This document shows, one piece after another, positions 696-50,424 of a stretch of DNA of 64,000 nucleotides (position 1 is the first letter of the stretch; each line of letters starts with the position of its first letter). The notes under the pieces are model-generated. The model ran no database searches, was not told the origin of the DNA, and saw nothing but the letters and a program-made list of their open reading frames with translations. A program made the translations under genes and the position numbers. The stretch covers positions 4,607,501-4,671,500 of the forward strand of contig NZ_CP029008.1 in NCBI RefSeq assembly GCF_024585165.1. The letters run 5' to 3'. This DNA is from Bradyrhizobium sp. WBOS07 (lineage in GTDB: Bacteria > Pseudomonadota > Alphaproteobacteria > Rhizobiales > Xanthobacteraceae).

Positions 696-2009
696 TCAAT
701 GCTGCGCTGCGAATGCAGTTTCCATGGCCTTGCGCGTCTTCACCGTTTCGTTGCCTGCATCGAATTCGACATCGCTCCAGCGCACCACCGCGCCATGGGC
801 GACGTCATGTTTCAGCTTCACGCGATGGGCGAGTCCGATCGGCAAGGCGCCGGCCCTCAGGCTCGCAGCCGCCGGTACCAGCTTGCCCCACACCGTATAG
901 CCCCCCTCGCCGTCGAGCATCTCGCCCGCGCGCAAATTCCGCTTGGCGACCGCCGCGACGTCGCCGCGGAAGCCGCTGGCCTGGCCGGTCGGCTCACCCC
1001 GCAGCGCGGCCGACAGCACCGAGATGTTCAGCTCGAGCCCGATCAGATGATAGGGCTTGTACATCGCAGCAAAGCGTCCGCTGGCGTCGGTCTTAAGGCC
1101 GTATTGCCGGAAGCAGTCGGCGGCATAATCGCTCGGAGCCTCCAGCACGACATAGACACCCCAGCGCAGGTCGCGGAACACCGGCCGGCCGTCGCGCTCG
1201 AGCGAGGAGACGACCTCGACCACGCCAGGTCGCTCCAGAACGCCGCCGCGCGAGCGCGGCCGCATGATGTGCGGCAGATCGTCGACGCCGCAGGGCGGAA
1301 ACAGCAGGCCGTCCGTGGGCACGTCGAGCGCGCAGGCATTGGCGATCGCGGCCATCTCGATCGCCGATTTGGTGCCGTCGAGAAACGAGTTGAACATCTG
1401 CGGGTTCATGCCGGCCGACTGCGCCTCGCCTGCGGTCAGGCCGTAATGCTGCCAAACGCCGTCAGGCGTCACGTCGTGGTAGGCCGGCAGGTATTTCGTG
1501 CCTTTGCCGGCGGCGACGACGCGGAAGCCGGTGGCGCGGGCCCAGTCGACCATCTCGGCAGTGAGCGCCGGCTGGTCGCCATAGGCGAGTGAATAGACCA
1601 CACCCGCCTTGCGCGCTTCCTCGGCGAGCAGGGGGCCCGCCAGCACGTCGGCCTCGACATTCACCATCACGACATGCTTGCCCGCGGCGATCGCGGCGCG
1701 CGCATGCTTGATGCCGGCCGCGGGATTGCCGGTCGCCTCCACCACCACGTCCATCGCACCGCCGGCAATGGCGCGCGCGCCGTCATCGGTGAACATGGTC
1801 GCGGCGATCCGCTCCGCGTCCCAGCCGACAGTGCGGCAGGCCTCGCGCGCGCGCTCGCGGTCGATGTCGACGATGACGGGCACCTCCAGCCCGGGCGTGT
1901 GCGGCACCTGCGCCAGAAACATCGAGCCGAATTTGCCCGCACCGATCAATGCGACCCGGACGGGCTTGCCGGCGGAGGCGCGGGCCTGGAGGAGGCGGAA
2001 GAGGTTCAT
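696..2009 (-). CDS. NAD(P)-binding oxidoreductase with C-terminal SAF domain (homoserine dehydrogenase-like)
   Basis: A 437-residue cytoplasmic protein. Residues 19-28 form a Rossmann dinucleotide site (VALIGAGKFG) followed by a homoserine-dehydrogenase-like fold (VVVEATGNP, GKHVVMVNVEAD). The C-terminal part from about residue 350 (VAKRNLRAGEMLDGEGGYTVWGK) has the SAF pattern seen in sialic-acid synthases and altronate dehydratases. Proteins of this kind are usually annotated as SAF-domain or Gfo/Idh/MocA-like oxidoreductases of unknown substrate. It lies on the same strand as the TRAP receptor gene, 180 bp upstream of it, so a shared role in uptake and oxidation of one compound is possible but only inferred. 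Confidence 0.8.
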   Translation of the reverse strand: MNLFRLLQARASAGKPVRVALIGAGKFGSMFLAQVPHTPGLEVPVIVDIDRERAREACRTVGWDAERIAATMFTDDGARAIAGGAMDVVVEATGNPAAGIKHARAAIAAGKHVVMVNVEADVLAGPLLAEEARKAGVVYSLAYGDQPALTAEMVDWARATGFRVVAAGKGTKYLPAYHDVTPDGVWQHYGLTAGEAQSAGMNPQMFNSFLDGTKSAIEMAAIANACALDVPTDGLLFPPCGVDDLPHIMRPRSRGGVLERPGVVEVVSSLERDGRPVFRDLRWGVYVVLEAPSDYAADCFRQYGLKTDASGRFAAMYKPYHLIGLELNISVLSAALRGEPTGQASGFRGDVAAVAKRNLRAGEMLDGEGGYTVWGKLVPAAASLRAGALPIGLAHRVKLKHDVAHGAVVRWSDVEFDAGNETVKTRKAMETAFAAQH

Positions 2010-2030
2010 GGGAATGTCCTGCTAAACTAT

Positions 2031-2173
2031 CGTGTCCCGGACGCGGTGCAGCGTGAAACGCTGCTCCGCAGAGCCGGGACCCAGGAAGACTACAGGGAAA
2101 CTAACCGGTGTGGCATGGGCCCCGGCTCTGCAGCGCGTCGTCAAGAGACGCTGCGCTGCGTCCGGGGCACGAG
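2031..2173. repeat. Long inverted repeat, family C (copy 1)
   Basis: Imperfect inverted repeat filling the gap between the oxidoreductase start and the dioxygenase stop. The outer arms read CGTGTCCCGGACGC and GCGTCCGGGGCACGAG; inner arms (GCAGAGCCGGGACC, GGCCCCGGCTCTGC) form a second stem. A sister copy lies at 59865-60008. No gene is seen inside. Confidence 0.75.
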
Positions 2174-2181
2174 ACCTCAGA

Positions 2182-2982
2182 CTACTCCGCCGCCTGCCGC
2201 GGTGCACGGGCGAGCCGCAGCAGCGCGTCGTCGTCCACCGCCTTGATCGGGGTAAAGTCGCGATGGGCGATATAGTCCGGCCGCGTCGGGGTCCGGATGT
2301 AGTTGGAGACCGCGTTCAGCGTCAGATACACGATCTTGCGCGGATAGGGCGTGATGTTGCCGGCGGAGCCGTGCACGAGATTGCCGTGGAACATCAGCAT
2401 GCCGCCGGGCTTGCCGGTCGGCGCGACGATGCCGCCCTGCTCGACGAGGCGCGTCACCGTCGCCTCGTCCAGCGTCCACAGCGGATAGGAGGTGGTGGCG
2501 AGGTCGTGCGAGGCCTCGAGATCGCCGGCGTTCTGGCTGCGCGGCACCAGCATCAGGGGGCCGTTGATCGGCATCACCTCGTCGAGGAAGATCGCGATGT
2601 TCATCGCCCGCGGCTCCGGCATGCCGTCGTCGCGCTTCCAGGTGCCGTAATCCTGGTGCCACTGCCAGACGTCGCCGGTGAAGGCTGATTTCGCGTTGAT
2701 CTTGAACTGGTGCATGTAGACGGGCTCGCCGAACAATTGTTCGACCGGCTCGATCATGCGCGGATGCGCCCCGAGGATGCCGAACGCCTCGTTGTAGAGA
2801 TGCGCGGCAAAGGCCGTGCGCGGCGCGCCGCTCTTCTCGCGCCAGACCTCCGGCCGGTTGGCATCGTAGATGCCGACCGCCTCGCGCGCCAACAGATCGA
2901 CCTCCTCTTGGGTAAACAGCTCGGGCAGGAACAGCCAGCCCTCGCGGTGGAAGAACTCCAATTGCTCCTGAGACAGTCTCAT
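2182..2982 (-). CDS. Phytanoyl-CoA dioxygenase (PhyH) family protein
   Basis: Non-haem Fe(II)/2-oxoglutarate dioxygenase of 266 residues. The metal site is visible as H109-x-D111 (WQWHQDYGTW) and the distal H204 in LVHGSAGN, with R215 placed to bind 2-oxoglutarate. The start at 2982 follows AAGGAGG at good spacing; upstream in-frame codons lie in a repeat and are rejected. The family hydroxylates varied small molecules (phytanoyl-CoA, ectoine, chlorinated or phosphonate compounds), so the substrate cannot be named. The GntR gene lies immediately upstream on the same strand. Confidence 0.88.
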   Translation of the reverse strand: MRLSQEQLEFFHREGWLFLPELFTQEEVDLLAREAVGIYDANRPEVWREKSGAPRTAFAAHLYNEAFGILGAHPRMIEPVEQLFGEPVYMHQFKINAKSAFTGDVWQWHQDYGTWKRDDGMPEPRAMNIAIFLDEVMPINGPLMLVPRSQNAGDLEASHDLATTSYPLWTLDEATVTRLVEQGGIVAPTGKPGGMLMFHGNLVHGSAGNITPYPRKIVYLTLNAVSNYIRTPTRPDYIAHRDFTPIKAVDDDALLRLARAPRQAAE

Positions 2983-3021
2983 GGGTCGTCCTCCTTGGCT
3001 TGTTATTTGTTGTCTCTCTCT

Positions 3022-3109
3022 CGTCATGGCCGGGCTTGACCCGGCCATCCACGTCTTGGCGTCACGTTCAAAAGAACGTGGATGCCCGGCTCAAGACCGG
3101 GCATGACGG
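3022..3109. repeat. Intergenic inverted repeat, family D (copy 1)
   Basis: Hairpin with outer arms CGTCATGGCCGGGCTTGA and TCAAGACCGGGCATGACGG, and an inner ACGTTC / GAACGT stem. It lies between the GntR gene stop and the dioxygenase start. Related arms occur near 50.9-51.0 kb. Confidence 0.7.
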
Positions 3110-3119
3110 AGCGGTGCCA

Positions 3120-3797
3120 CTACGCCGCCGCCTCGTCGCTCGCCCTCAACCTCTCCTCGGTCATCCGCCCCGCCGTTTGCGCATGCGCCAGCGCGGCGCG
3201 TTCGGCCGCGCTCGCATCGCCTGCGAGAATATGCCCGGCGATGCCGGCGTGCTCGGCCCAGGCGCTGCCGCGATAGTCGAGCTCCGACAGCACCGTCGCC
3301 ATCGAGCGGCGCATATGCGGCCATTGCGGCGCGATCGTCGCCTCGATCACGGGATTGCCGGCGAGCTGATAGATCGCGCGGTGAAAATCGACGTCGAGCA
3401 CGATGAGTTCGGCCAGGGGCGTCGCGCTGTCGATGCGGCCTCCGGCGGCCAGCGCCGCTTCCAACCGCGCGCGGCCGGCCGCGTCGGATCCCGCGCGTCG
3501 TGCCGCGAGCCGGGCCGCCAGCGCATCGATCGCGCCGCGCACCTCGTAGAGCTGGCGGATGCGTGCAGGGTCGAGCTGGGTGACCTCGAAGCCGCGCTTG
3601 CCGCTCTCGGCGACGAGGCCCTGCCGGTGCAAGAGATGCAGCGCGTGCGACACCGGCTGGCGCGACACGCCGAGCTTGTCGGCGAGCTCGTTCTGGCGGA
3701 TCCGTCGGCCGGGCTCGAGCGTCCCGTCGGAGATCGCCTCCAGGATGCGCGCATAGACTTGGTCGATCAGGTTCGGGAGCGGGTCGAGAGGGATCAC
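3120..3797 (-). CDS. GntR-family transcriptional regulator, FadR/FCD subfamily
   Basis: DNA-binding repressor or activator of 225 residues. An N-terminal winged helix-turn-helix (LIDQVYARILEAI, then QNELADKLGVSRQPVSHAL) is followed by an all-helical FCD effector domain. The GTG at 3797 is preferred: GGAG lies 8 nt upstream and the protein then begins directly before the winged helix. A TTG at 3818 in the same frame is the alternative. A perfect 20-bp palindrome lies about 25 bp before the GTG (see 3823-3842), which suggests autoregulation. The dioxygenase gene downstream is the obvious candidate target. Confidence 0.87.
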   Translation of the reverse strand: MIPLDPLPNLIDQVYARILEAISDGTLEPGRRIRQNELADKLGVSRQPVSHALHLLHRQGLVAESGKRGFEVTQLDPARIRQLYEVRGAIDALAARLAARRAGSDAAGRARLEAALAAGGRIDSATPLAELIVLDVDFHRAIYQLAGNPVIEATIAPQWPHMRRSMATVLSELDYRGSAWAEHAGIAGHILAGDASAAERAALAHAQTAGRMTEERLRASDEAAA

Positions 3798-3822
3798 GCC
3801 GGCAGCTCCGAAAGGCAAAAGG

Positions 3823-3842
3823 GAATACGGAATTCCGTATTC
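3823..3842. promoter_or_regulatory. Perfect 20-bp palindrome, likely GntR (FCD) operator
   Basis: GAATACGG-AATT-CCGTATTC is exactly self-complementary over 20 bases. AT-rich ends with a central GGAATTCC are common in FCD-type GntR operators. It lies directly upstream of the regulator gene, where a bound repressor would block transcription. Confidence 0.75.
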
Positions 3843-3981
3843 GAAGGTATGCTCCGACAGGTGGGCCCGTCAAGCGGTATCGGAGGGTGACGCAACGCCC
3901 TGTCGGGCACTGGCTAAGCCTTTGATATCTCTAGGCCCGTCTACTGTGCATGGGGTTGTTTTCGCGAAATCGCGTTCGGCC

Positions 3982-4839
3982 TCAGCCCTCCAGCACCTCG
4001 ACCCCCAGCGCAGCGAGCCGCTCCGCATCAGCCAGGGCCTCGATCCCGGCAATACGGTCGTTCTTGAATGTCACGCGCACCGCGATGCGCAGCTGCCCGC
4101 CGAGGATGACGGCAACGCCGATCTCGCCGTCGACCAGCGCGGTCCGCGCCGCCTTGGCACGGCCTTTATAGAGCTGCGCGACCGCATCCGCGCCGCGGAT
4201 CTCAGCCAGCGTGCCGAGCCGCATCGCGGCCTCGTCGGCGCGGAAGACGACGTCGGGATCGAGCACGGCCAGCAGCCCTTCGAAATCGCCCTCGCGCGAT
4301 GCCTTGAGGAAGGCATCGACGATTGTGCGCTGGCGTGACAGGTCGGTCTCGGGCACCGGCGCGCCCTGCACGCGCCGCCGCGCCCGGCTCGCGAGCTGCC
4401 GCGACGCCTCGACCGAACGGCCCACGATCGGCGCGATCTCCTCGAACGGCACGGCGAACATGTCGTGCAGCACGAAGGCGAGCCGCTCCGCAGGCTGCAG
4501 CGTTTCCAGCACCACGAGCAGCGCCGCGCCGACGGAGTCGGCCATCTCGGCCTCGCGCAGCGGCGTCTCGTCGGCCGTCTCCGGCACATGCGGGCCCATC
4601 GGCTCTTCCTTGCGCGATTTCCGTGCGCGCAGCATGTCGAGGCAGATGCGCGCGACCACGGTGGTCAGCCAGCCGCGCAGATTCGCGATATCGGACATGT
4701 CGTAGCGGCTGACCCGCAGCCAGGCCTCCTGCACGGCATCGTCGACCTCGGCGCGGGAGCCCAGCATCCGGTAGGCGACCGCGCGCAAATGGTCCCTGCT
4801 GGCCTCGAACTGTTCAGTGAGAAGATTTTGCTCGGTCAT
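3982..4839 (-). CDS. ECF sigma factor of the ECF41 type with fused SnoaL-like domain
   Basis: Alternative RNA polymerase sigma factor of 285 residues. Region 2 covers about residues 10-75 (AVAYRMLGSRAEVDDAVQEAW, WLTTVVARICLDMLRAR). Region 4 covers about 110-165 (LAFVLHDMFAVPFEEIAPIVGRS). A SnoaL-like domain of about 105 residues follows (FLKASREGDFEGLLAVLDPDVVF). In ECF41 this C-terminal domain replaces a separate anti-sigma factor. The divergent neighbour is an AhpD-like protein, the usual ECF41 partner. The family's C-terminal NPDKL-type motif is here only ADAERL, so control by the domain may differ. Confidence 0.87.
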   Translation of the reverse strand: MTEQNLLTEQFEASRDHLRAVAYRMLGSRAEVDDAVQEAWLRVSRYDMSDIANLRGWLTTVVARICLDMLRARKSRKEEPMGPHVPETADETPLREAEMADSVGAALLVVLETLQPAERLAFVLHDMFAVPFEEIAPIVGRSVEASRQLASRARRRVQGAPVPETDLSRQRTIVDAFLKASREGDFEGLLAVLDPDVVFRADEAAMRLGTLAEIRGADAVAQLYKGRAKAARTALVDGEIGVAVILGGQLRIAVRVTFKNDRIAGIEALADAERLAALGVEVLEG

Positions 4840-4840
4840 C

Positions 4841-4867
4841 GGTCACATTCCCTCGTCGCGATCCGTC
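4841..4867 (+). promoter_or_regulatory. ECF41-type promoter for the AhpD-like gene
   Basis: GGTCACA (4841-4847), 16 bases, then CGTC (4864-4867). The reported ECF41 target promoter is TGTCACA about 16 bp from CGTC, so only the first base differs. It points towards the AhpD-like gene and lies just before the sigma factor start, as expected for this sigma group's single conserved target. Confidence 0.65.
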
Positions 4868-4935
4868 ATGCCCATGACGAAGCCGATCCGGCCGGTGTGA
4901 CCGGAACCTTCGAAATTCGAGCGATGGAGACGAAC

Positions 4936-5394
4936 ATGATGCACGCCCGCATGAATCACCCCGTCATGGTCCTGCCCGAGGCCATGAACCTCCTGCAGTC
5001 CCTCGGCAGCCTGACCAAGCAGGGCCTGCCGGAAAAGCTTCTGGAACTGGTGCACCTGCGCGCCAGCCAGATCAACGGTTGCAGCGTCTGTGTCGACATG
5101 CATCCCAAGATCGCCCGCAAGCTGGGTGAGACCGACGAGCGCCTGTTCGCCGTGTCTGCCTGGCGCGAGGCGCCCTATTTCACCGACGCCGAGCGCGCCG
5201 CGCTGGCGCTGACCGAGGCCGTCACCCGTCTCGCCGATCGCGAGGATCCGGTGCCGGATGCGGTCTGGAGCGAGGCCGACAAGCATTACGACGAACGCGA
5301 GCTCGCCACGCTGATCCTGTCGATCGCAACCATCAACGTCTGGAACCGGCTGAACGCAACGGTCAAGATGCCGGTTGGCGGGTGGAAAGCGTGA
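4936..5394 (+). CDS. Carboxymuconolactone decarboxylase / AhpD-like family protein
   Basis: Small alpha-helical protein of 152 residues with the AhpD core motif C49-S-V-C52-x3-H56 (QINGCSVCVDMHPK), the redox-active cysteine pair of alkylhydroperoxidase-like proteins. The start at 4936 has GGAGA 6 bases upstream; an ATG at 4924 is possible but has no such site. The gene is divergent from an ECF41-type sigma factor and carries a matching promoter. That arrangement is conserved for ECF41 systems and suggests a sigma-controlled oxidative or electrophile response. The actual substrate is unknown. Confidence 0.85.
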   Translation: MMHARMNHPVMVLPEAMNLLQSLGSLTKQGLPEKLLELVHLRASQINGCSVCVDMHPKIARKLGETDERLFAVSAWREAPYFTDAERAALALTEAVTRLADREDPVPDAVWSEADKHYDERELATLILSIATINVWNRLNATVKMPVGGWKA

Positions 5395-5400
5395 ATTGCC

Positions 5401-5430
5401 GCGCCCTCTTCCCCGGTGGGGAGAGGGCGC
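5401..5430. terminator. Strong hairpin between convergent genes
   Basis: GCGCCCTCT and AGAGGGCGC arms enclose an inner CCCC-GGT-GGGG stem. It sits between the stop of the AhpD-like gene and the stop of the convergent hydrolase gene, so it could end transcription from both sides. No T-run follows. Confidence 0.6.
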
Positions 5431-6243
5431 CTACTCCGCCAAGAACCGGTTCACCACGTCGCCGAACTCCAGCGGCGCCTGCTCGAACATCCAATGGCCG
5501 GCGTTCGGAATCACCACCGTCTCAGCTCCCGCGATATGCGCGGCCAGTACGCGCCACAACACCGACAGGCTCCCTGTCGTGGCGCCGCCGCCGATCAGCA
5601 GCGTCGGCGTCCGGATCGCCTGCGCGTCTGCGAGCGTGTAGGGCCGACGCTGCTCGTTGATCTGGCCGAGCAAGGTCAGCGCGTTGTCGCGCAGCTGCTG
5701 CTTCGCCGCCGCCGGCACCCGCCGCCAGGCGCCGTCGCCTTCAATGCCCTCGTAGAAATTCTGCAGCGCGCCCTCGATGTCGCCGGCGCGGATCATCTCG
5801 ACCGAGCGCGCGGTGCGCGCCGCCAGCGGCGGATGCGCAGGCGTGCCTTCGGGCACCAGCAGGCTGGCGTCGAGATCGCCACCGGGCTCGGCCAGCACCA
5901 GCTTTCGCAGCAGATCCGGCCGCGCCTGCGCCACGCGGAACGCGATGTGGCCGCCGCGCGAGTGGCCCATCAAATCGACCGGCCCGGGCTTCACCTGCTC
6001 GATGAAGGCGATGGTGTCCGAAACGTGCTGCGCCATCTTGTAGTCGTCGCCGACGGCGTCCCAATGCTCGGGGAAGAAATGCCGCAGGCTGACCGCGATC
6101 ACGCGACGGGTCTTCGACAGCGGACCGAGCACCGCATACCAGGTGCGGAAATCTCCGAGCGTGCCGTGCACGCAGACCAGCGGCGGGCCGCTTCCGACCT
6201 CAAGATAGGCCATGTCGTAATCGTTGACGCGGAATGTCTGCAT
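5431..6243 (-). CDS. Alpha/beta hydrolase (tandem paralogue 2)
   Basis: Hydrolase of 270 residues. The oxyanion region is VCVHGTLGDFRTW (about 23-35) and the nucleophile elbow is GHSRGGH with Ser95. The catalytic histidine is likely in NAGHWMFEQ near residue 250. It is closely similar to the neighbouring hydrolase at 6246-7064, starting 2 bp after that gene's stop, so the two form an operon born by duplication. Ester, lactone or C-C bond hydrolysis are all possible; no substrate is evident. Confidence 0.86.
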   Translation of the reverse strand: MQTFRVNDYDMAYLEVGSGPPLVCVHGTLGDFRTWYAVLGPLSKTRRVIAVSLRHFFPEHWDAVGDDYKMAQHVSDTIAFIEQVKPGPVDLMGHSRGGHIAFRVAQARPDLLRKLVLAEPGGDLDASLLVPEGTPAHPPLAARTARSVEMIRAGDIEGALQNFYEGIEGDGAWRRVPAAAKQQLRDNALTLLGQINEQRRPYTLADAQAIRTPTLLIGGGATTGSLSVLWRVLAAHIAGAETVVIPNAGHWMFEQAPLEFGDVVNRFLAE

Positions 6244-34411: not shown

Positions 34412-34939
34412 TCACCACGGCAGGCCGCATAGGTCGATGGTGCCCAGCGTCGGGGCGCGGACGATGTTGAAGACGTAGGGCGCCATGTGGGTGAAGCGGA
34501 TCCGCCCCTCCGGCTGTTCGCAATAGACCTCACCCTTGAGGGGCAGCCAGCTCCGGGTCTCGTAGAACGAGACATTGTGGGGCTCGCAGAACAGCAGCGC
34601 GAAGCGAACGGCCTCGTTGGCGCGCATGGTGTGGACCGCCGCGTCGATCGCCACGGTCGCATAGCCGCGGCCGCGCCGGTCCTCGCGGGTGCAGACCCCG
34701 CCGATGCCGCCGATATGGACCTTCTGCCCATTCCAGGTGACGGTGCGGAAGTAGATGCCGACATGGCAGACCAGGCCGTCCTCGGGGGTCTCGATCAGGA
34801 CGCGCAGATCGGCATTGGCCCATTTGACCTGAGCCCAGGGCTTGTCCGCGATCGTATGTGGTCCCCAAACCGCCTGATGCAATGGCTCCGCAATCGGCCA
34901 CGAGGCGTCGCCGTTCAGAATGTCGATCTCAATGCTCAT
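34412..34939 (-). CDS. GNAT family N-acetyltransferase
   Basis: A 175-residue acetyltransferase. The acetyl-CoA loop is GGVCTREDRRGRGYATVAI (the R/Q-x-x-G-x-G/A pattern as RRGRGY), followed by VRFALLFCEPHNVSFYETRSW. Acetyl acceptor unknown. The ATG at 34939 is preferred over an upstream codon at 34978. Confidence 0.87.
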   Translation of the reverse strand: MSIEIDILNGDASWPIAEPLHQAVWGPHTIADKPWAQVKWANADLRVLIETPEDGLVCHVGIYFRTVTWNGQKVHIGGIGGVCTREDRRGRGYATVAIDAAVHTMRANEAVRFALLFCEPHNVSFYETRSWLPLKGEVYCEQPEGRIRFTHMAPYVFNIVRAPTLGTIDLCGLPW

Positions 34940-35047
34940 GGAGTCCGTTTTGCATCGCAGTTCGGTGATCGGCCTCACAGACGGAGGGCGCCAATTTGCT
35001 CAGATAGCACTAAATGGTATGGTATCGCGACAAAACTGGAAACCGAG

Positions 35048-36778
35048 ATGCGCCGGCTGGGGCTGATCGCTATGGCACTCGCGTTTTGCTTGGCGGGCGA
35101 AAGCGCGCGCGCCGAGAAACGCGTGGCATTGGTTTTCGGCAATTCTGGCTATCAGAACGTCACCGCGCTGACCAATCCCGCGAACGACGCGGCCGCCATG
35201 GCCGAGATGTTCCGCAAGGCTTCCTTTGACGTCATCGATTCGCGTCGCGACCTCAAATACATGGAGATGCGCCGGGCGCTGCGCGACTTCACCGAGAAGG
35301 CGCGCGGGGCCGACATTGCCGTCATCTATTTCGCCGGCCATGGCCTCGAGGTCGACGGCACCAATTACGCGGTCCCGGTGGACGCGGTGCTGGAGCGCGA
35401 TTCCGACGTCGATGACGAGGCGGTGTCGCTCAATCGCATCCTGCTTGCGGTCGAGCCGGCCGCGAAGCTGCGCCTTGTCATTCTGGATGCCTGCCGCGAC
35501 AATCCCTTTGCGAAGAAGATGAAGCGCACGATTGCGTCGCGCTCGCTCGGGCGAGGGCTGATAGGCGTAGAAGCCAACAGGCCCAATACGTTCATTGCCT
35601 TTGCCGCCAAGGAGGGAGCAACGGCGTCGGACGGTGACGGCCGCAACAGCCCGTTCACCACGGCGCTGGTCAAGCATCTGACCATCCCCGGCCTCGACAT
35701 CCGCAAGGCCTTCGGTTTCGTCCGCGATGACGTGATGAGCGCCACGGCAAGCCAGCAGGAGCCCTATACGACCAATTCGCTCGGCGGCAATGACGTCTCT
35801 CTGGTTCCGGCGCCTGCGGTCCCGGCACTGCCCGCCCGCCCGGCGGATACGGATGTCCGCGCCGATTATGAGCTGGCCGAACGTGTCGGGACGGTCGAGG
35901 GGTGGGATTCCTTTATCGCCGCGCATCCGTCCGGCTTTTACGCCAATCTCGCGAAGGCGCAGCGCAACAAGCTCACGGCGGAGACCGAGCGCGCGGCTGC
36001 CGCCGAGAAGGCGCGCCAAGCCGCGGATGAGCGTGCACGGCTCGCGGTCGAGGGTGCCAAAGCGGCGGATCAGGCGAAGGCCGAAGCCGAGGTGAAGGCA
36101 ACCGAGCAAGCCCGGATAGCGGCCGAGAAGAAGAAGCAGGTAGAGGAGGCCAAGCTGGCCGCCGAGCAGAACCGGCTGGCCGAACAGGCCAAAGCTGCGG
36201 AGATTAAAAAAGCCGCCGAGTTGCAACGGGAGGCCGAAGCAGAGGCGAAGAAGGCGAGCGCCGCCAAGCTCGCCGCCACGAACGAGGCGCCGCAGCAGCC
36301 GGATACACCCACGCCTGGATCGGCCCAGCCCACCGGCCGGATCGCGATGGTCACGCCTACACCGGAACCGCAGGCGAGTCGCGCGATTCCCTCCGATCTT
36401 CCTCGCCTGCTCCAGGCCGAGCTCAAGCGGGTCGGCTGCAAGACCGGCGAAGTCGGCAATGAGTGGAACGACCAGGCCCGCCGGGCCCTCTCGCTATTCA
36501 ACCAGAAGGCCGGTACGAAGCTCGACACCAGACTTGCGAGTCTGGATGCGCTGGATGCGGTGCAGGCCAAGGCCGGCCGGGTCTGCCCGCTCGAATGCGA
36601 CCGGGGCTTCCGCGCCAGCGGAGAGGTCTGCGTCAAAATCACCTGCGAGGCGGGCTACGTCCTGAGCGCGGGCGGCAGTTGCGTCAAACGTCCCGAAGCG
36701 ACGCGCGAGCGGCGCTCACCTTCCTCCGCATCCCGCGGCAAGTGCTTCGTCTATCAGGGGACGTCGTTCTGCGAATAG
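35048..36778 (+). CDS. Secreted caspase-like protein (peptidase C14) with coiled coil
   Basis: A 576-residue protein. Residues 1-22 form a signal peptide (LGLIAMALAFCLAGESARA). The caspase p20-like domain spans about 24-260 with catalytic His98 (YFAGHGLEV) and Cys149 (LDACRDNPF). Residues about 300-420 are an Ala/Glu/Lys-rich coiled coil. The C-terminal part has six or more cysteines (CPLECDRGF, CVKITCEAGYV, SCVKR). Such metacaspase relatives are common in Bradyrhizobium; natural substrates are unknown. The export signal would place the protease outside the cytoplasm. Confidence 0.87.
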   Translation: MRRLGLIAMALAFCLAGESARAEKRVALVFGNSGYQNVTALTNPANDAAAMAEMFRKASFDVIDSRRDLKYMEMRRALRDFTEKARGADIAVIYFAGHGLEVDGTNYAVPVDAVLERDSDVDDEAVSLNRILLAVEPAAKLRLVILDACRDNPFAKKMKRTIASRSLGRGLIGVEANRPNTFIAFAAKEGATASDGDGRNSPFTTALVKHLTIPGLDIRKAFGFVRDDVMSATASQQEPYTTNSLGGNDVSLVPAPAVPALPARPADTDVRADYELAERVGTVEGWDSFIAAHPSGFYANLAKAQRNKLTAETERAAAAEKARQAADERARLAVEGAKAADQAKAEAEVKATEQARIAAEKKKQVEEAKLAAEQNRLAEQAKAAEIKKAAELQREAEAEAKKASAAKLAATNEAPQQPDTPTPGSAQPTGRIAMVTPTPEPQASRAIPSDLPRLLQAELKRVGCKTGEVGNEWNDQARRALSLFNQKAGTKLDTRLASLDALDAVQAKAGRVCPLECDRGFRASGEVCVKITCEAGYVLSAGGSCVKRPEATRERRSPSSASRGKCFVYQGTSFCE

Positions 36779-44357: not shown

Positions 44358-44449
44358 CCAGCGCCAGTGTGCGACGGTGCTCTGGTCTTCTAGGTTGATA
44401 ATCAGAAAGAAGCCTTTGACCGTTGAACAAACGTAGAACAAGATGAGGT

Positions 44450-47400
44450 GTGCCTGAGGAAACGTACCAACCAGCCAAAATCGCAGCCCCGGCGGCAACG
44501 GGTGGGGCGGGGCCTCAGTTTGAGGTCAGGGTCGGTGCATTCTACGTTTTGGCGCTTCTATCAGGCGGAGAGCCTCGCGGCCTGCCGGGTGCCACCGTCC
44601 GCAGCGTTGCGTTTCAGCAACGAGTTGCGAAACACCCTCTCGACGATGTGGTGATCAAAGCGGCCAGCCGGGACGGCTCCCCGGCCACATTGGAGATCCA
44701 GGTCAAGCGCAGCCTGACCTTCACCGCCGCCGATACTGAATTTCTGGACGTCGTTGGACAAATCTGGGAAGCGGCGCAGAAGCCGGACTTCGCGATCAGC
44801 CGATACGAACTCGCAGCGGCGGTCGCGCGAACGACAACGCGTATCGAGCAGGCCTGCCAGGAAGTGTTGCATTGGGCTCGCCAACTTCCCGATGGCGCGA
44901 CTTTCGCCGCGCGTATCAACCGCCCAAGCTTCGCATCGGACGCGATGCGCAGCTTCGTCGACGTCTTTCGCACGAACCTCAGGTTGGCCGGCGGGCGGAC
45001 GGACGACGAGACGGTTTGGAGGCTACTTCGTCGCTTCCAGATTCTGGTTTTTGATTTTGAGTCAGTGGGCTCGGACTACGAACATCGCGCGCGAGAGAAT
45101 TTGCGTTGGATCCTCGGCCCGGACCAAGCCGACCGTGCCAATGGCCTCTGGCAGGTTCTCATCGATCTTGTTGGCGCAAGCGCTCGTGCGGCCGGCGCCA
45201 TGGATCGAGCTACGGTTGTCACGACACTTGAGCAGCAGCATGGCGTCCGCTTCACAGTGCATCCCTATGTGCGTCCTGTCTATGAGCGCCTGACGGAAGC
45301 AGCCGAGCTGGCGCTCGATGAGATCGACGAGACCGTTGGGGGTGTGCGCCTTGGGCGAAACCAGTTGATCGACAAGGCGGAAAACCTCCTCCAACAACGT
45401 CCGATTGTGCTGATCCAGGGGCCTCCCGGTGTCGGCAAATCCGGGGTCATGAAGCACCTTGCCGCGCGTCTGCAAGCTGAAGGCTGCGTCCTGGCTCTCC
45501 GCCGCGGCCGGATTATCTCGGGCGGCTGGTCAGTGATGGCTCACACGATCGGTTGGGCCGGCTCTCAAGCGGAACTGTTCAATGAGCTTGGAGCGGGTGG
45601 CGGAGCGACCCTGTTCATCGACAACATCGACCAGATCGACGATCCAGGCGAATGGGCCACAGTCATCGACCTGCTATCGCAAGCCACTCGCAGCCAGGGC
45701 TGGCGCATCGTCGCGACCTGCGGTGTGGAAAGTGACGACTGGAAGACGAAACTTCCCACGCGCGTTAGAGCGGCGGGCATCGGCAGCTTGGTGATCGGAG
45801 CTTTGTCGAATGAGGAAAAGGCCGAACTCTCCTCGCAGAACAAGGCGCTGGCTCTGATTTTGGCAGACGGCCATCCGGCTAAGGGAATTGCTGAAAATCT
45901 CTTCTATCTGTCGCGCCTGGTCGAACTCGGTGTCGGACAGGACGCCGGCATTGCAACCGAACTTGATCTCGCGCGCCTGTGGTGGCGCTATGGTGGCGGT
46001 CGATCCGAGGACGATCGGCGATTTGCGCGCCTGAAACTGTTACGTACGATCGGCGCTCAGGCGATTTCGGCCCCCTCGCAGGCAACGTTCAATGTCGACA
46101 ATCTCGATTCTAGGACCGTTGTTGAACTATTGCGGCTCGAAACCTTGCGCGAGGAGATCCGTGGCGCAAGCGTAACGTTCCGACACGATGTGCTGCGTGA
46201 CTGGACGGTTGGATTTCAGATCCACGAAGACGCCAACCTGTTAGCGGCGCAGCCGATGGAGCGGCCGTTGCCAATCTGGTTGGGCCGCGGGCTGGAGATC
46301 GCGGCGCGATTGGCGTTGGCCGATGATCCTTCAGGGCAACGCTGGCTGGCACTTCTTGCCATTGCCGAACGCGAAGGCCGCCATGGGAGCTGGAAGCGGC
46401 CCATACTGCTGGCACTTCCGCGCTCTGAAAACTCCCTGACACTATTTGTTGCTCTGACAGCCGTCTTGTTGGAATCGGGCGGGCGCTGGCTGCGCGAAAT
46501 TATTCGGCTCGTGATCGCCGTCGAGTCTGAGCCTCTCGCTTCCTTGATCGCAAGGGTACGGCCGGATATCGCTCTGCCAGCGTTCGGCGGTGGTGACTTC
46601 ATCGCGCCGAAAGGTTCGAGTTGGTTTCCGCTCGTGATCTGGCTGACGATTTCGACCAAGTCTCTGCCGACCGAATTAATTCCAGATGCCGTCAAGATAT
46701 TTCAGGCGTGGCTAATGACCACGCATGGCCACAATTATCCACTGAACACGCAGATTGTCGGGATTCTTTTTGATTGGCTTGCCCTCGTCGAGTCTCATGT
46801 GACGCACCGCGTCTACCGAGACATCAGCGAGGTTCCGCCGAGCCTGAATATCGATCATCTGGAAGACGTGCGTAACGACATTCGGATGATCGCGTTCAGT
46901 TTCGCGAACTTGAATCCGTCTGCGGCAGCCCGGTACCTAGCCGGCATCAATTCAGAAACGATCGCCTATCACGATCAGCAGACACTTCTCAAATCGCCTG
47001 GAACGTTGCCGGGAGCAGCCCCTGGGCCATTCGCAGATTTTGCGCTAGCGACGCTGATCGAGAAAGATGATCCGGATCGCTACTATACGCGTCGCCGCGA
47101 CTACGGTCCGTTTGAAGTCCATGAGCATGTCTTTTTGGATATCCCAACCGATGGCGGACCATTCCTCTCGGTTCTAAATGCTTCCCGCGATGACGGCTTG
47201 CGGCTTATTCGCGGGCTTGTCGAGCACGCGACGCAATGGCGCCGGGAGCAATACCAAGAACAGGGAACGCCGTTTCCGCAGATAAAGATCGCATTTCCCG
47301 GCAATGAAATGACGTTCGAAGGCGATCTCATGGTCTATCGCTGGACACGGGCCACCGGTCCTTCGCTGATCGCCGCCACGGCATTAAGGGCACTTGAAGC

Positions 47401-49660
47401 TTGGGGGCACCTCCAGATTGAGGCGGGATGCCCTTTCAATGATGTCCTGCACGACGTTCTTGGTCCAGACGGCTCAAGTCTTGCGTTTCTTGCCGTCGCG
47501 ATTGACCTTGCGCTGTCGCATTGGCAGGTCGTCGCCGATGCAGCTTGGCCCTTGGCTGCCGATCCTCGACTGATCCAGTTCGATGAGGACCGCTTTAGGC
47601 ACGATATCAGCGGCGTCAATCGTCGGCCACGCGCGGGAGGACAGCAGATCCAGACCACTCTTCGCGTGGATCTCGACGCCCAGCGGTCGCGACGAACGCG
47701 CCTATTCGACATAATCGGGCGATACGCCTTCCGCGGGGACGCCACCACTCTCACGCAGCTACGGGCCGCCTTTGAAAAAGTCCGCGACGAACTCGACAAT
47801 CAACCCCATGACGATCAAAATCGGGTCGCGGAGCTCCATGCAACGGTTACGCGCGCCCTCCGCATGCTGGATGTGGCAAATTGGGAGGCCGTGACCACGA
47901 CTTTGCAGGACGGTACTCAGGTCCAAGCCTATCAATTCAAGGAAATTCCCGAGGAGCAACAAGCGAGAGAGAACCAAGCCTCCCAAGCAAGCGCTAACCT
48001 TCAGCGCATGAGTATCCGGCTGCGGATACAGTCCGCTCTTGTTGAGCCCGACCAGTCGACACCGGCCCTTTTGCAAGAAGCACTCGCCTGGGCAATAGCG
48101 CAGCCCGCGCAAATCCAACTGCAGCCGGACGGCGAGGACGACAATTACGATACGGAATGGAACCGCCGCGCGGTTGTAATGACAGCGGCGCTCGTTGCCC
48201 GCGACTACGAGGCGGAAGACCGCGACAAGGTTCTAATTTGGGCTCGTCCGATTTTACTGACGGCATCGGTGCAGAACGACCGTGAATATTTCGGCAACGA
48301 TCAGATCGAACACAACACGTCGGCTTCTGCCGCCCTTGGGATTGTCGCTCTGTTTCTTCGAGATCAGGATAAGACGACACGTGACATGCTCCTAGAGCTA
48401 TCAGGCTATGAGCACCCCGCGGTACTCGAAGCGTTAGGGCAGAATCTATTGCATTTGGGCGAAGCGAACGACCGAATTCCGCGGTCCATCATCCGCATAG
48501 TTATGGTCGCTGCGGTCCATCTCCGCCGGGCCCTGAGTGTTGAGGAGCAGAAGGCTAATGACCGCCTTCACCGCGAGGCAATTGATGCTGCGATCGCTGT
48601 CGAACAGAATTGGCTTGACGGAGGAGGTACGGAGCCGCCGTGGCCCGAGCTGGCGTCATGGCCCTCGAGGTCGCGTCGGGGCAGTCGCTTGGGCGACGAT
48701 GGACGTATTGATGATGACGATGACGGCGAACGGCCGAGGCACTATGTCCACGAACAAGCGATCGCCAAGCTTGCGCATCATCTCATCCGCTTCACGATCA
48801 AGGATGTTCCGGTCTGGGTTAAGCACCTAGCTGTCCATTTGATGGCGTGGACCGACGAGGCGAATGGTCCGCATGGCGAGGACGTGCGCGCGCCCGACCA
48901 TCGTCCGAACACTTGGAATATCGCTTTTTTCGATTTTGTCGGAGTGTTGAGCGTTGCGTTATCGCATTCGGAAGTAGTCGATCTATTCTTGAAACGCATC
49001 ATAGGGTTTAACGACGATGCCTTTCATGACGCCATGGCCTCATTCCTTCGCGGTTACGACCGGGCGACGGTGGCGACGGATACTAAAACCCCAGAGAATC
49101 CGGCTGATGTTCGCAAATTGCTTGCCGACCGCATCAAGCGCACCTGGAACTATCGGCGTCTAGGACGCGAGAAGGGCTTTACGAGCGAAACTCATGCTGG
49201 CGATGCTTTGACTGCCATGTTCTACCAGCCTTCGCGTTGGGCTGGCAGCGACCGTCCGACAATTCCTAACAATTGGCATGACCTGCCGACAACCATGCCA
49301 ACGCTCACGAATATTGTTGTAGGTGCGCCAACGTCGGGCTATATCGCGGCTCTATTTCTAAACCTGATCGAATCGTCGCGTGACAAAGCACTCATTCCGT
49401 TTGTCGTTCGGGCACTGACGGCTTGGTGCTCTGCCTATGGCGTAGACCGAAATTTCTGGGCGGAGAGGAACATCGGCAGCCGCGTGTGCGCCTGGTGCGA
49501 TGAGGCTCTAACCAAAGATGCAACGGCGCGCGCCACGTTGACCGAACGAGCCGACGATCTTTTCCGTTGCCTCGATATCCTTGTTCAGTCAGGCGTAGCG
49601 CAAGCACGGATCATCGAAGACAAGCTCGTCGGCCCTGAGGAAGGCCGCAAGGTCGGCTAA
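44450..49660 (+). CDS. Large STAND-like P-loop NTPase with N-terminal restriction-nuclease-like domain (candidate anti-phage protein)
   Basis: A single 1,736-residue protein. Residues about 20-130 begin GPQFEVRVGAFYVLALL and carry a PD-(D/E)xK-type pattern: Asp65/Asp66 (PLDDVVI) and E82-x-Q84-V-K86 (LEIQVKRS), as in Cap4/Mrr-like DNA nucleases. A NTPase follows: Walker A GPPGVGKS (324-331), Walker B LFIDNID (388-394), and GHPAKGI further on. The remaining roughly 1,100 residues are helical, without known catalytic motifs, and could sense a phage protein. The layout effector - NTPase - long sensor is that of Avs (AVAST) proteins. Codon use is visibly more AT-rich than in neighbours, suggesting transfer. 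GTG start; GAGG is very close to it. Confidence 0.82.
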   Translation: MPEETYQPAKIAAPAATGGAGPQFEVRVGAFYVLALLSGGEPRGLPGATVRSVAFQQRVAKHPLDDVVIKAASRDGSPATLEIQVKRSLTFTAADTEFLDVVGQIWEAAQKPDFAISRYELAAAVARTTTRIEQACQEVLHWARQLPDGATFAARINRPSFASDAMRSFVDVFRTNLRLAGGRTDDETVWRLLRRFQILVFDFESVGSDYEHRARENLRWILGPDQADRANGLWQVLIDLVGASARAAGAMDRATVVTTLEQQHGVRFTVHPYVRPVYERLTEAAELALDEIDETVGGVRLGRNQLIDKAENLLQQRPIVLIQGPPGVGKSGVMKHLAARLQAEGCVLALRRGRIISGGWSVMAHTIGWAGSQAELFNELGAGGGATLFIDNIDQIDDPGEWATVIDLLSQATRSQGWRIVATCGVESDDWKTKLPTRVRAAGIGSLVIGALSNEEKAELSSQNKALALILADGHPAKGIAENLFYLSRLVELGVGQDAGIATELDLARLWWRYGGGRSEDDRRFARLKLLRTIGAQAISAPSQATFNVDNLDSRTVVELLRLETLREEIRGASVTFRHDVLRDWTVGFQIHEDANLLAAQPMERPLPIWLGRGLEIAARLALADDPSGQRWLALLAIAEREGRHGSWKRPILLALPRSENSLTLFVALTAVLLESGGRWLREIIRLVIAVESEPLASLIARVRPDIALPAFGGGDFIAPKGSSWFPLVIWLTISTKSLPTELIPDAVKIFQAWLMTTHGHNYPLNTQIVGILFDWLALVESHVTHRVYRDISEVPPSLNIDHLEDVRNDIRMIAFSFANLNPSAAARYLAGINSETIAYHDQQTLLKSPGTLPGAAPGPFADFALATLIEKDDPDRYYTRRRDYGPFEVHEHVFLDIPTDGGPFLSVLNASRDDGLRLIRGLVEHATQWRREQYQEQGTPFPQIKIAFPGNEMTFEGDLMVYRWTRATGPSLIAATALRALEAWGHLQIEAGCPFNDVLHDVLGPDGSSLAFLAVAIDLALSHWQVVADAAWPLAADPRLIQFDEDRFRHDISGVNRRPRAGGQQIQTTLRVDLDAQRSRRTRLFDIIGRYAFRGDATTLTQLRAAFEKVRDELDNQPHDDQNRVAELHATVTRALRMLDVANWEAVTTTLQDGTQVQAYQFKEIPEEQQARENQASQASANLQRMSIRLRIQSALVEPDQSTPALLQEALAWAIAQPAQIQLQPDGEDDNYDTEWNRRAVVMTAALVARDYEAEDRDKVLIWARPILLTASVQNDREYFGNDQIEHNTSASAALGIVALFLRDQDKTTRDMLLELSGYEHPAVLEALGQNLLHLGEANDRIPRSIIRIVMVAAVHLRRALSVEEQKANDRLHREAIDAAIAVEQNWLDGGGTEPPWPELASWPSRSRRGSRLGDDGRIDDDDDGERPRHYVHEQAIAKLAHHLIRFTIKDVPVWVKHLAVHLMAWTDEANGPHGEDVRAPDHRPNTWNIAFFDFVGVLSVALSHSEVVDLFLKRIIGFNDDAFHDAMASFLRGYDRATVATDTKTPENPADVRKLLADRIKRTWNYRRLGREKGFTSETHAGDALTAMFYQPSRWAGSDRPTIPNNWHDLPTTMPTLTNIVVGAPTSGYIAALFLNLIESSRDKALIPFVVRALTAWCSAYGVDRNFWAERNIGSRVCAWCDEALTKDATARATLTERADDLFRCLDILVQSGVAQARIIEDKLVGPEEGRKVG

Positions 49661-49707
49661 GTGGGTGCCGCACGATCAATCGTCATCTTCCGAACGTATA
49701 GCGGGCC

Positions 49708-50424
49708 ATGCGTTTTCTCACCACCTTCCAGATTGCCGATTTCGCCGACACGCTGGTCAGCCTGATCACCGCCTTCGTGCTGGGCACGCTGATCGGCGCC
49801 GAGCGGCAATACCGCCAGCGCACCGCGGGCCTGCGGACCAATGTGCTGGTCGCGGTGGGGGCTGCCGCCTTCGTCGATCTCGCCATGCAGCTCGACAATG
49901 CAGAGGGCGCGGTGCGGGTGATCGCCTATGTCGTCTCGGGCATCGGCTTCCTGGGCGCCGGCGTCATCATGAAGCAGGGCATGGACGTGCGCGGGCTCAA
50001 CACCGCCGCGACGCTGTGGGCCTCGGCCGCGGTCGGGTCCTGCGCCGGTGCCGACATGATCGCGCAGGCGGCCGCGCTGACGGTGTTCGTCATTGCCGGC
50101 AACACCATGCTGCGTCCGCTGGTCAACGCCATCAACCGCATCCCGCTGAACGAGAAGGCACTGGAGGCGAGCTATTATTTCAAGCTCGCGGTCGCGGCCG
50201 ACGCCTTGCCTGATATGCGCGACCGCCTCGTCGAAAAGCTCGAGGGTGCGAAATATCCGGTGGCGAGTCTCGAGGTCGTCGAGATCGGCGAGGACATGCT
50301 GGAGATTGTCGCCAAGCTGGTCGCGAGCGCGATCGACCCGAACGAGCTGAACGCCGTGGCGACCGATCTGCAGCATCTGCCCGGCGTGCGCCATGCCACC
50401 TGGGAAGCCAGCACGACCGAGTAA
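49708..50424 (+). CDS. MgtC/SapB family membrane protein
   Basis: A 238-residue protein. The N-terminal 140 residues hold about four membrane segments with MgtC hallmarks: AFVLGTLIGAERQYRQRTAGLRTNVLVAVGAAAFV and SGIGFLGAGVIMKQG, LNTAATLWASAAVG. A cytoplasmic ACT-like C-terminal domain follows. In pathogens MgtC aids growth in low magnesium and dampens the F-ATPase; in soil bacteria its role is less clear. It begins 47 bp after the large NTPase gene. Confidence 0.92.
   Translation: MRFLTTFQIADFADTLVSLITAFVLGTLIGAERQYRQRTAGLRTNVLVAVGAAAFVDLAMQLDNAEGAVRVIAYVVSGIGFLGAGVIMKQGMDVRGLNTAATLWASAAVGSCAGADMIAQAAALTVFVIAGNTMLRPLVNAINRIPLNEKALEASYYFKLAVAADALPDMRDRLVEKLEGAKYPVASLEVVEIGEDMLEIVAKLVASAIDPNELNAVATDLQHLPGVRHATWEASTTE

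Follow-up and report, generated by a model that had tools for sequence, protein, structure and literature searches.

A probable Avs-class receptor with an Avs4-type sensor and a Cap4/LmuA-type nuclease fold in Bradyrhizobium sp. WBOS07

Domain architecture of the encoded protein

The window (the whole 64,000-nucleotide stretch that was analysed, positions 4,607,501 to 4,671,500 of contig NZ_CP029008.1 of Bradyrhizobium sp. WBOS07) carries a GTG-started open reading frame (ORF) at 44450-49660 (+) that encodes a protein of 1,736 amino acids. A preliminary description, made from the sequence alone, had taken this gene for a stand-alone, Avs-like anti-phage sensor held in one intact frame and inserted among housekeeping genes. 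The frame is indeed free of internal stops, and the gene was the sole match when its own genome (a single 6.73-Mb contig) was searched. The same start is found in the homologue P0002 (1,737 amino acids) and in the copy at locus L006; the longer, 1,736-residue start is supported because full-length homologues begin there. The gene and its parts are as follows.

44450..49660, + strand: whole receptor gene, 1,736-residue nuclease-STAND NTPase-solenoid receptor (reading frame, genome search, model)
44483..45250, + strand: N-terminal effector, residues 12-267, predicted PD-(D/E)xK nuclease of Cap4/LmuA fold
44642..44707, + strand: predicted active site, residues 65-86 (D65, D66, E82, Q84, K86; alignment, and model strands 67-72 and 78-86)
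45272..46249, + strand: STAND/NACHT NTPase with winged-helix part, residues 275-600 (Pfam, fold, profile comparison)
45419..45442, + strand: Walker A, residues 324-331, GPPGVGKS (alignment)
45611..45631, + strand: Walker B, residues 388-394, LFIDNID (alignment)
46184..46189, + strand: HD pair, residues 579-580 (alignment)
46367..49657, + strand: C-terminal sensor, residues 640-1736, helical solenoid of Avs4 type (fold)
47330..47509, + strand: 60-residue stretch with the highest conservation in the sensor, 961-1020 (alignment)

The N-terminal and Walker motifs named in the preliminary description were all present and were conserved in a 73-row alignment, from which the conservation counts given here are taken. 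A catalytic aspartate followed by E-x-Q-x-K is the motif of Cap4/LmuA-type nucleases, and it is conserved in the window protein's family: D65 and D66 were kept in 72 rows (the other being a gap), E82 in 70 (with aspartate in three), and Q84 and K86 in all 73. The structure model places residues ~16-266 in a PD-(D/E)xK nuclease fold, as had been anticipated, and the subtype is that of Cap4 and LmuA. By fold and conserved motif, the N-terminal part would be the enzymatic effector typical of AVAST/Avs proteins. Likewise, K330 of Walker A and both D391 and D394 of Walker B were invariant (73/73), and the HD pair, which we take to be comparable to the MHD motif of NLR proteins, was kept in 73 rows (H) and 72 rows (D). 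The Pfam STAND models fell below their cut-offs (nSTAND3, PF20720.3: 25.6 bits against a gathering cut-off of 27.2); PF20720.4 appears in the precomputed annotation of record P0001 and of many close homologues.

The sensor, which comprises ~1,097 residues, has the fold of the portal-sensing solenoid of Avs4. The preliminary description had found that this far part resembled nothing recognisable, which is correct for Pfam (no match was found in these residues) and incorrect for the fold.

P0001, apparently the same protein as that of the window, is recorded with 1,670 amino acids, covering 96% of the query. It was probably annotated from an internal start, which by its length would lie ~66 residues later and would cost the nuclease its first part. 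The closest foreign protein among the matches listed (best 120 of 470) was from B. guangdongense, at 90% identity.

Relatives of the nuclease were also seen in other settings. The nuclease E-x-Q-x-K of a distant genus relative (L086:1415-6730) is degenerate though the region aligns, and that effector is possibly inactive or changed. A 560-amino-acid protein on the Agrobacterium tumefaciens Ach5 plasmid pAt (L094:5962-7644) has no STAND part, and its N-terminal part is 42% identical to nuclease residues 23-238; two trypsin-like protease genes lie just upstream, which recalls the nuclease-protease pairs of PMC12799240, where, in the passages seen, the nuclease is of MBL type. The PADLOC model DUF626_VIII was touched by 11 of 24 family members, on the nuclease part in the three members seen.

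Kinship with Avs4 and distance from named systems

The relationship to Avs4 (AVAST type 4; EcAvs4, PDB 8dgf) was seen by several routes. A profile-profile comparison of 39 family members with 31 Avs4 proteins gave Prob 98.5 and an E of 1.5e-15 over columns 289-1299 against 165-1173, which correspond to ~residues 268-1280 of the window protein and 153-1164 of Avs4. Regional comparisons with Avs4 gave E of 8.9e-11 for the NTPase, 5.3e-8 for the sensor alone and 1.3e-7 for residues 860-1060, while one reversed and eight column-shuffled sensors, included as a control, gave 0.16 to 0.97. When a 24-member family profile was compared with PDB sequences, 8dgf came first (whole-sequence E 9.5e-7) through three collinear stretches, none of them strong alone. 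Foldseek returned Avs4 at 2.0e-16 and Avs3 at 4.0e-10. The VIA-align lists also held many mammalian NLR, importin or HEAT-repeat rows, and only the row far above the rest, Avs4, was used to assign the sensor. Avs4 and the first structure model differed by a root-mean-square deviation of 16.5, and the domain arrangement in that model is therefore different or unsure. These observations indicate that the STAND NTPase in the middle of the protein, which has both Walker motifs, is followed by a long C-terminal sensor related by descent to Avs sensors, and that both parts are homologous to those of Avs4, residues 1300-1736 by fold only.

The protein is nevertheless far from Avs4 at the level of the family models. 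It scored 33.4 bits against the NCBI Avs4 model (NF041815; PADLOC PDLC02169), for which the cut-off is 1,500, and is ~160 residues longer than Avs4. The Avs4 head, which we take to be of Mrr type, was represented by a profile of Avs4 residues 1-150 and had no match in the window protein; homology between that head and the window nuclease was also rejected by profile comparison (E 0.49). Among the best 120 of 470 relatives of the window protein, 114 had a Cap4-type head (E < 1e-5) and none an Avs4 head; the figures were 119 and 0 for the best 120 of 417 relatives of a Bradyrhizobium sister protein (L020), and 0 and 118 for the best 120 of 1,641 relatives of an Avs4, each set sampling the near part of its family. 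In a 45-row tree of the NTPase and first sensor part, from which the nuclease was excluded, one branch with a support of 100 separated the 15 Avs4-head rows from the other 30. All of the latter were labelled Cap4-type, yet the head match of L089 was not significant (E 0.02), and L089, L085, L086 and L082 are long branches of unsure placement. Identity as a plain Avs4 was rejected on the cut-off, the head domain and the tree. As a true Avs4 with an Avs4 head is present in the same genus (L090, 1,802 bits in PADLOC), Avs4 and the window-type receptor coexist in Bradyrhizobium. The Avs4 profile had seven matches at 1e-5 in 398 genomes of the phylum, one of them above the cut-off; it had none at 1e-10 in 289 genomes of the class, where no control matched either, so that absence cannot be concluded.

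Other named systems differ in further respects. Avs3 (PDB 8dgc, a terminase sensor) is a weaker fold match than Avs4, and its solved chain has ~2,000 residues. The nucleases of Cap4 (CBASS) and LmuA (Lamassu; 6wan, 6vm5 and 9hr5 for the two) share the fold, whereas that of the window is fused to a STAND receptor. Avs5 (SIR2-STAND; 9jap, 9nc9) has a Sir2-type effector and a different sensor. No paper naming the clade was found among the titles and abstract openings searched or in passages of PMC12931631, PMC12799240, PMC13245274 and PMC12724215, and the clade may already figure in the Gao 2022 or Bechon 2024 trees. The source names of the relatives among the matches listed include no defence name, and most relatives are nameless. 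Fold, profile comparison, empty sites and patchy distribution together support the preliminary reading of the gene as Avs-like and stand-alone, and its horizontal acquisition. The proposal of a new subtype in the preliminary description was supported, on grounds other than those given there: its basis is the Cap4/LmuA-type nuclease and the score of 33.4 out of 1,500 bits, not a C-terminal part unlike anything else.

Insertion site, recombination and neighbouring genes

The features surrounding the receptor gene are as follows.

44358..49677, no strand: inserted unit of 5,320 bp, starting directly 3' of the WD40 stop codon
44407..44449, + strand: leader stretch common to the window and close copies L002 and L006
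43338..44357, + strand: WD40 beta-propeller gene, left neighbour (matched in genus genomes)
49708..50424, + strand: MgtC/SapB family gene, right neighbour (locus comparison)

The codon use is AT-rich, as had been noted: GC content at third codon positions (GC3) is 0.640, against 0.853 +/- 0.041 in the other 51 script-called window ORFs of at least 150 amino acids, which is the lowest of the 52 and ~5 standard deviations down. Overall GC content is 0.587 in the gene and 0.657 +/- 0.025 in the other 51. The left neighbour was matched in 60/60 sampled genus genomes (mostly covered in 59 and partially, at a contig end, in one), and 30 WD40 loci were compared, 29 after removal of the window's own. 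The receptor gene was seen at the WD40 site in none of the 29; 24 lacked it and had the right flank within the same short locus, one had just the more distant portion of that flank, and four had none of it on the stretch. In relatives without the gene, homology runs up to 44357, where the WD40 stop codon ends, and restarts at 49678; the insert is therefore 5,320 bp long. Apart from the receptor gene it has only a leader of 92 bp and a tail of 17 bp, and no transposase or integrase. A promoter scan of the leader stretch found no sigma-70-like promoter.

Some relative of the receptor was found in 24/265 genus genomes, a lower bound since only the two best candidates per genome were scored; some of the 24 are weak matches, and one, G246, is a true Avs4. 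Relatives at >=74% identity occur in seven genus genomes including the window's own, the copy in one of them (G006) being broken by a TAG and split frames, and G094 holds a remnant of 33 residues. Six close-copy loci (L002-L006 and L009) are 73-84% identical to the window in DNA, and what they have in common with it is confined to the gene and to flanks of at most 43 bp on the 5' side and 12 bp on the 3' side. In G028, the WD40 locus (L060) lacks the receptor gene and a close copy lies on another contig. The empty sites and patchy distribution support horizontal gain of the gene, and it is not conserved at this site in all relatives. At L009 (Bradyrhizobium altum) and at G006:C59, a broken receptor copy adjoins a relative of a DSR2 gene; copies elsewhere are intact.

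Recombination within the gene was found in one close copy, L006. Synonymous divergence between the window and L002 was 0.34-0.72 in 13/14 segments of the gene (1.19 in the other), while between the window and L006 it was 0.47-0.83 to residue 992 and 1.26-2.33 thereafter. The identity of L002 to L006 is 98% over residues 125-248 and falls to 69-78% past residue 992. A tree of residues 1-640 paired L002 with L006 (0.998), and one of residues 1061-1736 grouped the window with L002 (1.000) and L006 with L003/L004 (0.999). Maximum chi-square tests were made on third codon positions of five triples, with two contrasts each and 2,000 permutations. Breaks were obtained for window/L002/L006 after residues 901 and 936 (0 and 0 permutations as high), for L006/L002/L005 after 1132 and 70 (0 and 3) and for L006/L002/L003 after 812 and 502 (0 and 0); in the triples without L006, 175 and 67 (window/L002/L005) and 832 and 311 (window/L002/L003) permutations were as high. 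Recombination is assigned to L006 because every triple that holds it breaks and the triples lacking it give little or no such signal. The break estimates lie mostly between residues 502 and 1132, with no single sharp point, and the conserved patch at 961-1020 falls within this range. Regional dN/dS (the ratio of nonsynonymous to synonymous rates) was 0.08 to 0.28, which indicates purifying selection throughout and, with this measure, no sign of positive selection.

No neighbour common to all compared loci was found that might serve as a partner gene. In the neighbour scan, 12 ORFs were chosen by eye at eight of 12 loci, with ten of them compared with PADLOC and ten with Pfam; PADLOC matched 6/10 and left 4/10 without a match. 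The L003 copy adjoins DSR2 (E 9.8e-144) and AbiEi (5.8e-100), with the same ORFs at L004 and a relative of the DSR2 ORF at L009. L009 also holds a helicase resembling HamB and an ORF that matches PDC-S73, and two ORFs at L002 gave weaker PADLOC matches. Pfam identified HipA at L002, with a relative at L006, and a VapE-like primase gene adjoining the L010 copy. These hand-chosen neighbours support a defence role without proving it.

In two distant hosts, large ORFs related to each other lie close to the receptor gene (L006:2386-6498 and L008:8343-13139); the former (1,370 amino acids) has a sub-threshold NACHT match, and the pair are possibly another receptor. Relatives occur on 24 of 72,556 plasmid records, over >=80% of the protein in nine; 11 of the 24 records are typed conjugative, and some of the relatives are the nuclease part only. 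None was found in 50,697 phage records, and a pattern-limited scan of viral contigs gave one match at 25% identity. At L092 a relative appears as two same-strand ORFs (765-3428 and 3618-6101; 888 and 828 amino acids), either a split gene or a broken copy. Within the window, an ORF at 34487-36778, ~8 kb upstream among housekeeping genes, has by eye a caspase-like (peptidase C14-like) stretch.

Proposed function and alternatives

In passages of PMC12724215 and PMC12931631, Avs proteins are described as binding a phage protein through their sensor, oligomerising in an ATP-dependent manner and thereby activating a nuclease that destroys phage and host DNA. In the same passages, Avs1-3 are sensors of the terminase and Avs4 of the portal (PMC12724215), and Avs5 responds mainly to a protein that is neither of the two (PMC12931631). 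The existence, modelled architecture and kinship of the receptor reported here are well supported, and the gene is probably a single-gene AVAST (Avs)-class receptor of a large clade beside Avs4, in which a Cap4/LmuA-type nuclease replaces the Avs4 head. By analogy, it is likely to act as a nuclease-armed receptor for a phage protein. At rest, the NTPase would keep the receptor inactive; the solenoid would then bind a protein made by an infecting phage, ATP binding would drive oligomerisation and gather the N-terminal nucleases, and these would cut phage and host DNA and so end the infection. As the sensor is of Avs4 type, the portal is the first ligand candidate and the best guess, although its probability is put at slightly under even.

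Several observations weigh against this interpretation. Housekeeping genes flank the receptor gene. Residues 1-267 had no Pfam or PADLOC match, and neither Cap4, LmuA nor any other nuclease appeared when a single sequence or a profile was matched to PDB sequences (Cap4 and LmuA had no sequence match at E 10). The rows returned, four by sequence (SAM-AMP lyases and a designed protein) and two designed proteins by profile, have E >=0.39 and are taken as chance; the nuclease class is thus assigned by modelled fold and motif only. PADLOC Avs4 was matched by 18/24 family members, the window protein not being among them. Residues 1300-1736 match Avs4 in fold and not in sequence (E 0.37), and, because identity to Avs4 is only ~11-18%, the ligand may differ from that of Avs4. 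There was also no sign of portal exclusion across the genus: HK97-type portals (PF04860) were matched in 8/24 genus genomes with a receptor relative and 57/241 without, about equally often. The receptor's own genome had no match to this model, and four control genomes did.

A distinct possibility, though a minority one, is that the receptor class is correct and that a changed distal sensor reads another phage protein, for instance a structural or early protein or the large terminase. The sensor is most diverged from residue ~1061 onward, its distal part has another origin in one close copy, the sequence match to Avs4 is absent after residue 1300, and Avs5 provides a precedent. It is unlikely that the protein is an already named member, either Avs4 itself or the PADLOC candidate PDC-M54A (PDLC04700). 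The latter is its best PADLOC match (1.5e-13, 46.7 bits) and is matched by 21/24 family members (Avs4 by 18/24), but the PDC-M54A match of the window protein is confined to residues 127-588 of 1,736 and leaves the sensor unmatched. PDC-M54A is presumably multi-gene, as we read the M of its name, and the window gene stands alone; Avs4 is opposed by the low score, by the absence of its head from all 240 listed family proteins and by the full score reached by L090.

A role other than anti-phage defence, for example as a STAND nuclease that acts in a stress response or on mobile DNA such as plasmids, is judged improbable. The lack of matches in phage records and the presence of relatives on plasmids would fit it, but the kinship with Avs4, the known defence families beside some relatives and the VapE-like primase beside one copy do not. 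The flanking genes would suit a conserved housekeeping gene of odd composition, but its presence in just 24/265 genus genomes, the sites without it in 24/29 other loci (with no gene seen in the other five) and the low GC3 have already refuted this reading, which is given almost no weight.

Whether the probable Avs-class receptor belongs to something larger is evenly balanced: a large, unnamed Avs type, sister to Avs4 and spread across Pseudomonadota, could pair an Avs4-type solenoid stably with a Cap4-type nuclease in a bare single gene and renew its specificity by distal-sensor recombination, as in NLR-type receptors. It is held at this level because the swap is seen in one copy, L006, from which a family-wide habit would be an extension.

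The locus adds to the known receptors a clade beside Avs4 that is unnamed by the defence models tried, which gave the window protein only partial matches far from family level. Avs4 and the window clade form a natural pair, with related sensors and different nucleases, for asking if specificity depends on the sensor and nothing else. The copies L002 and L006, which resemble each other in their first halves and differ in their second, are suited to locating the half of the solenoid that would read the phage protein.
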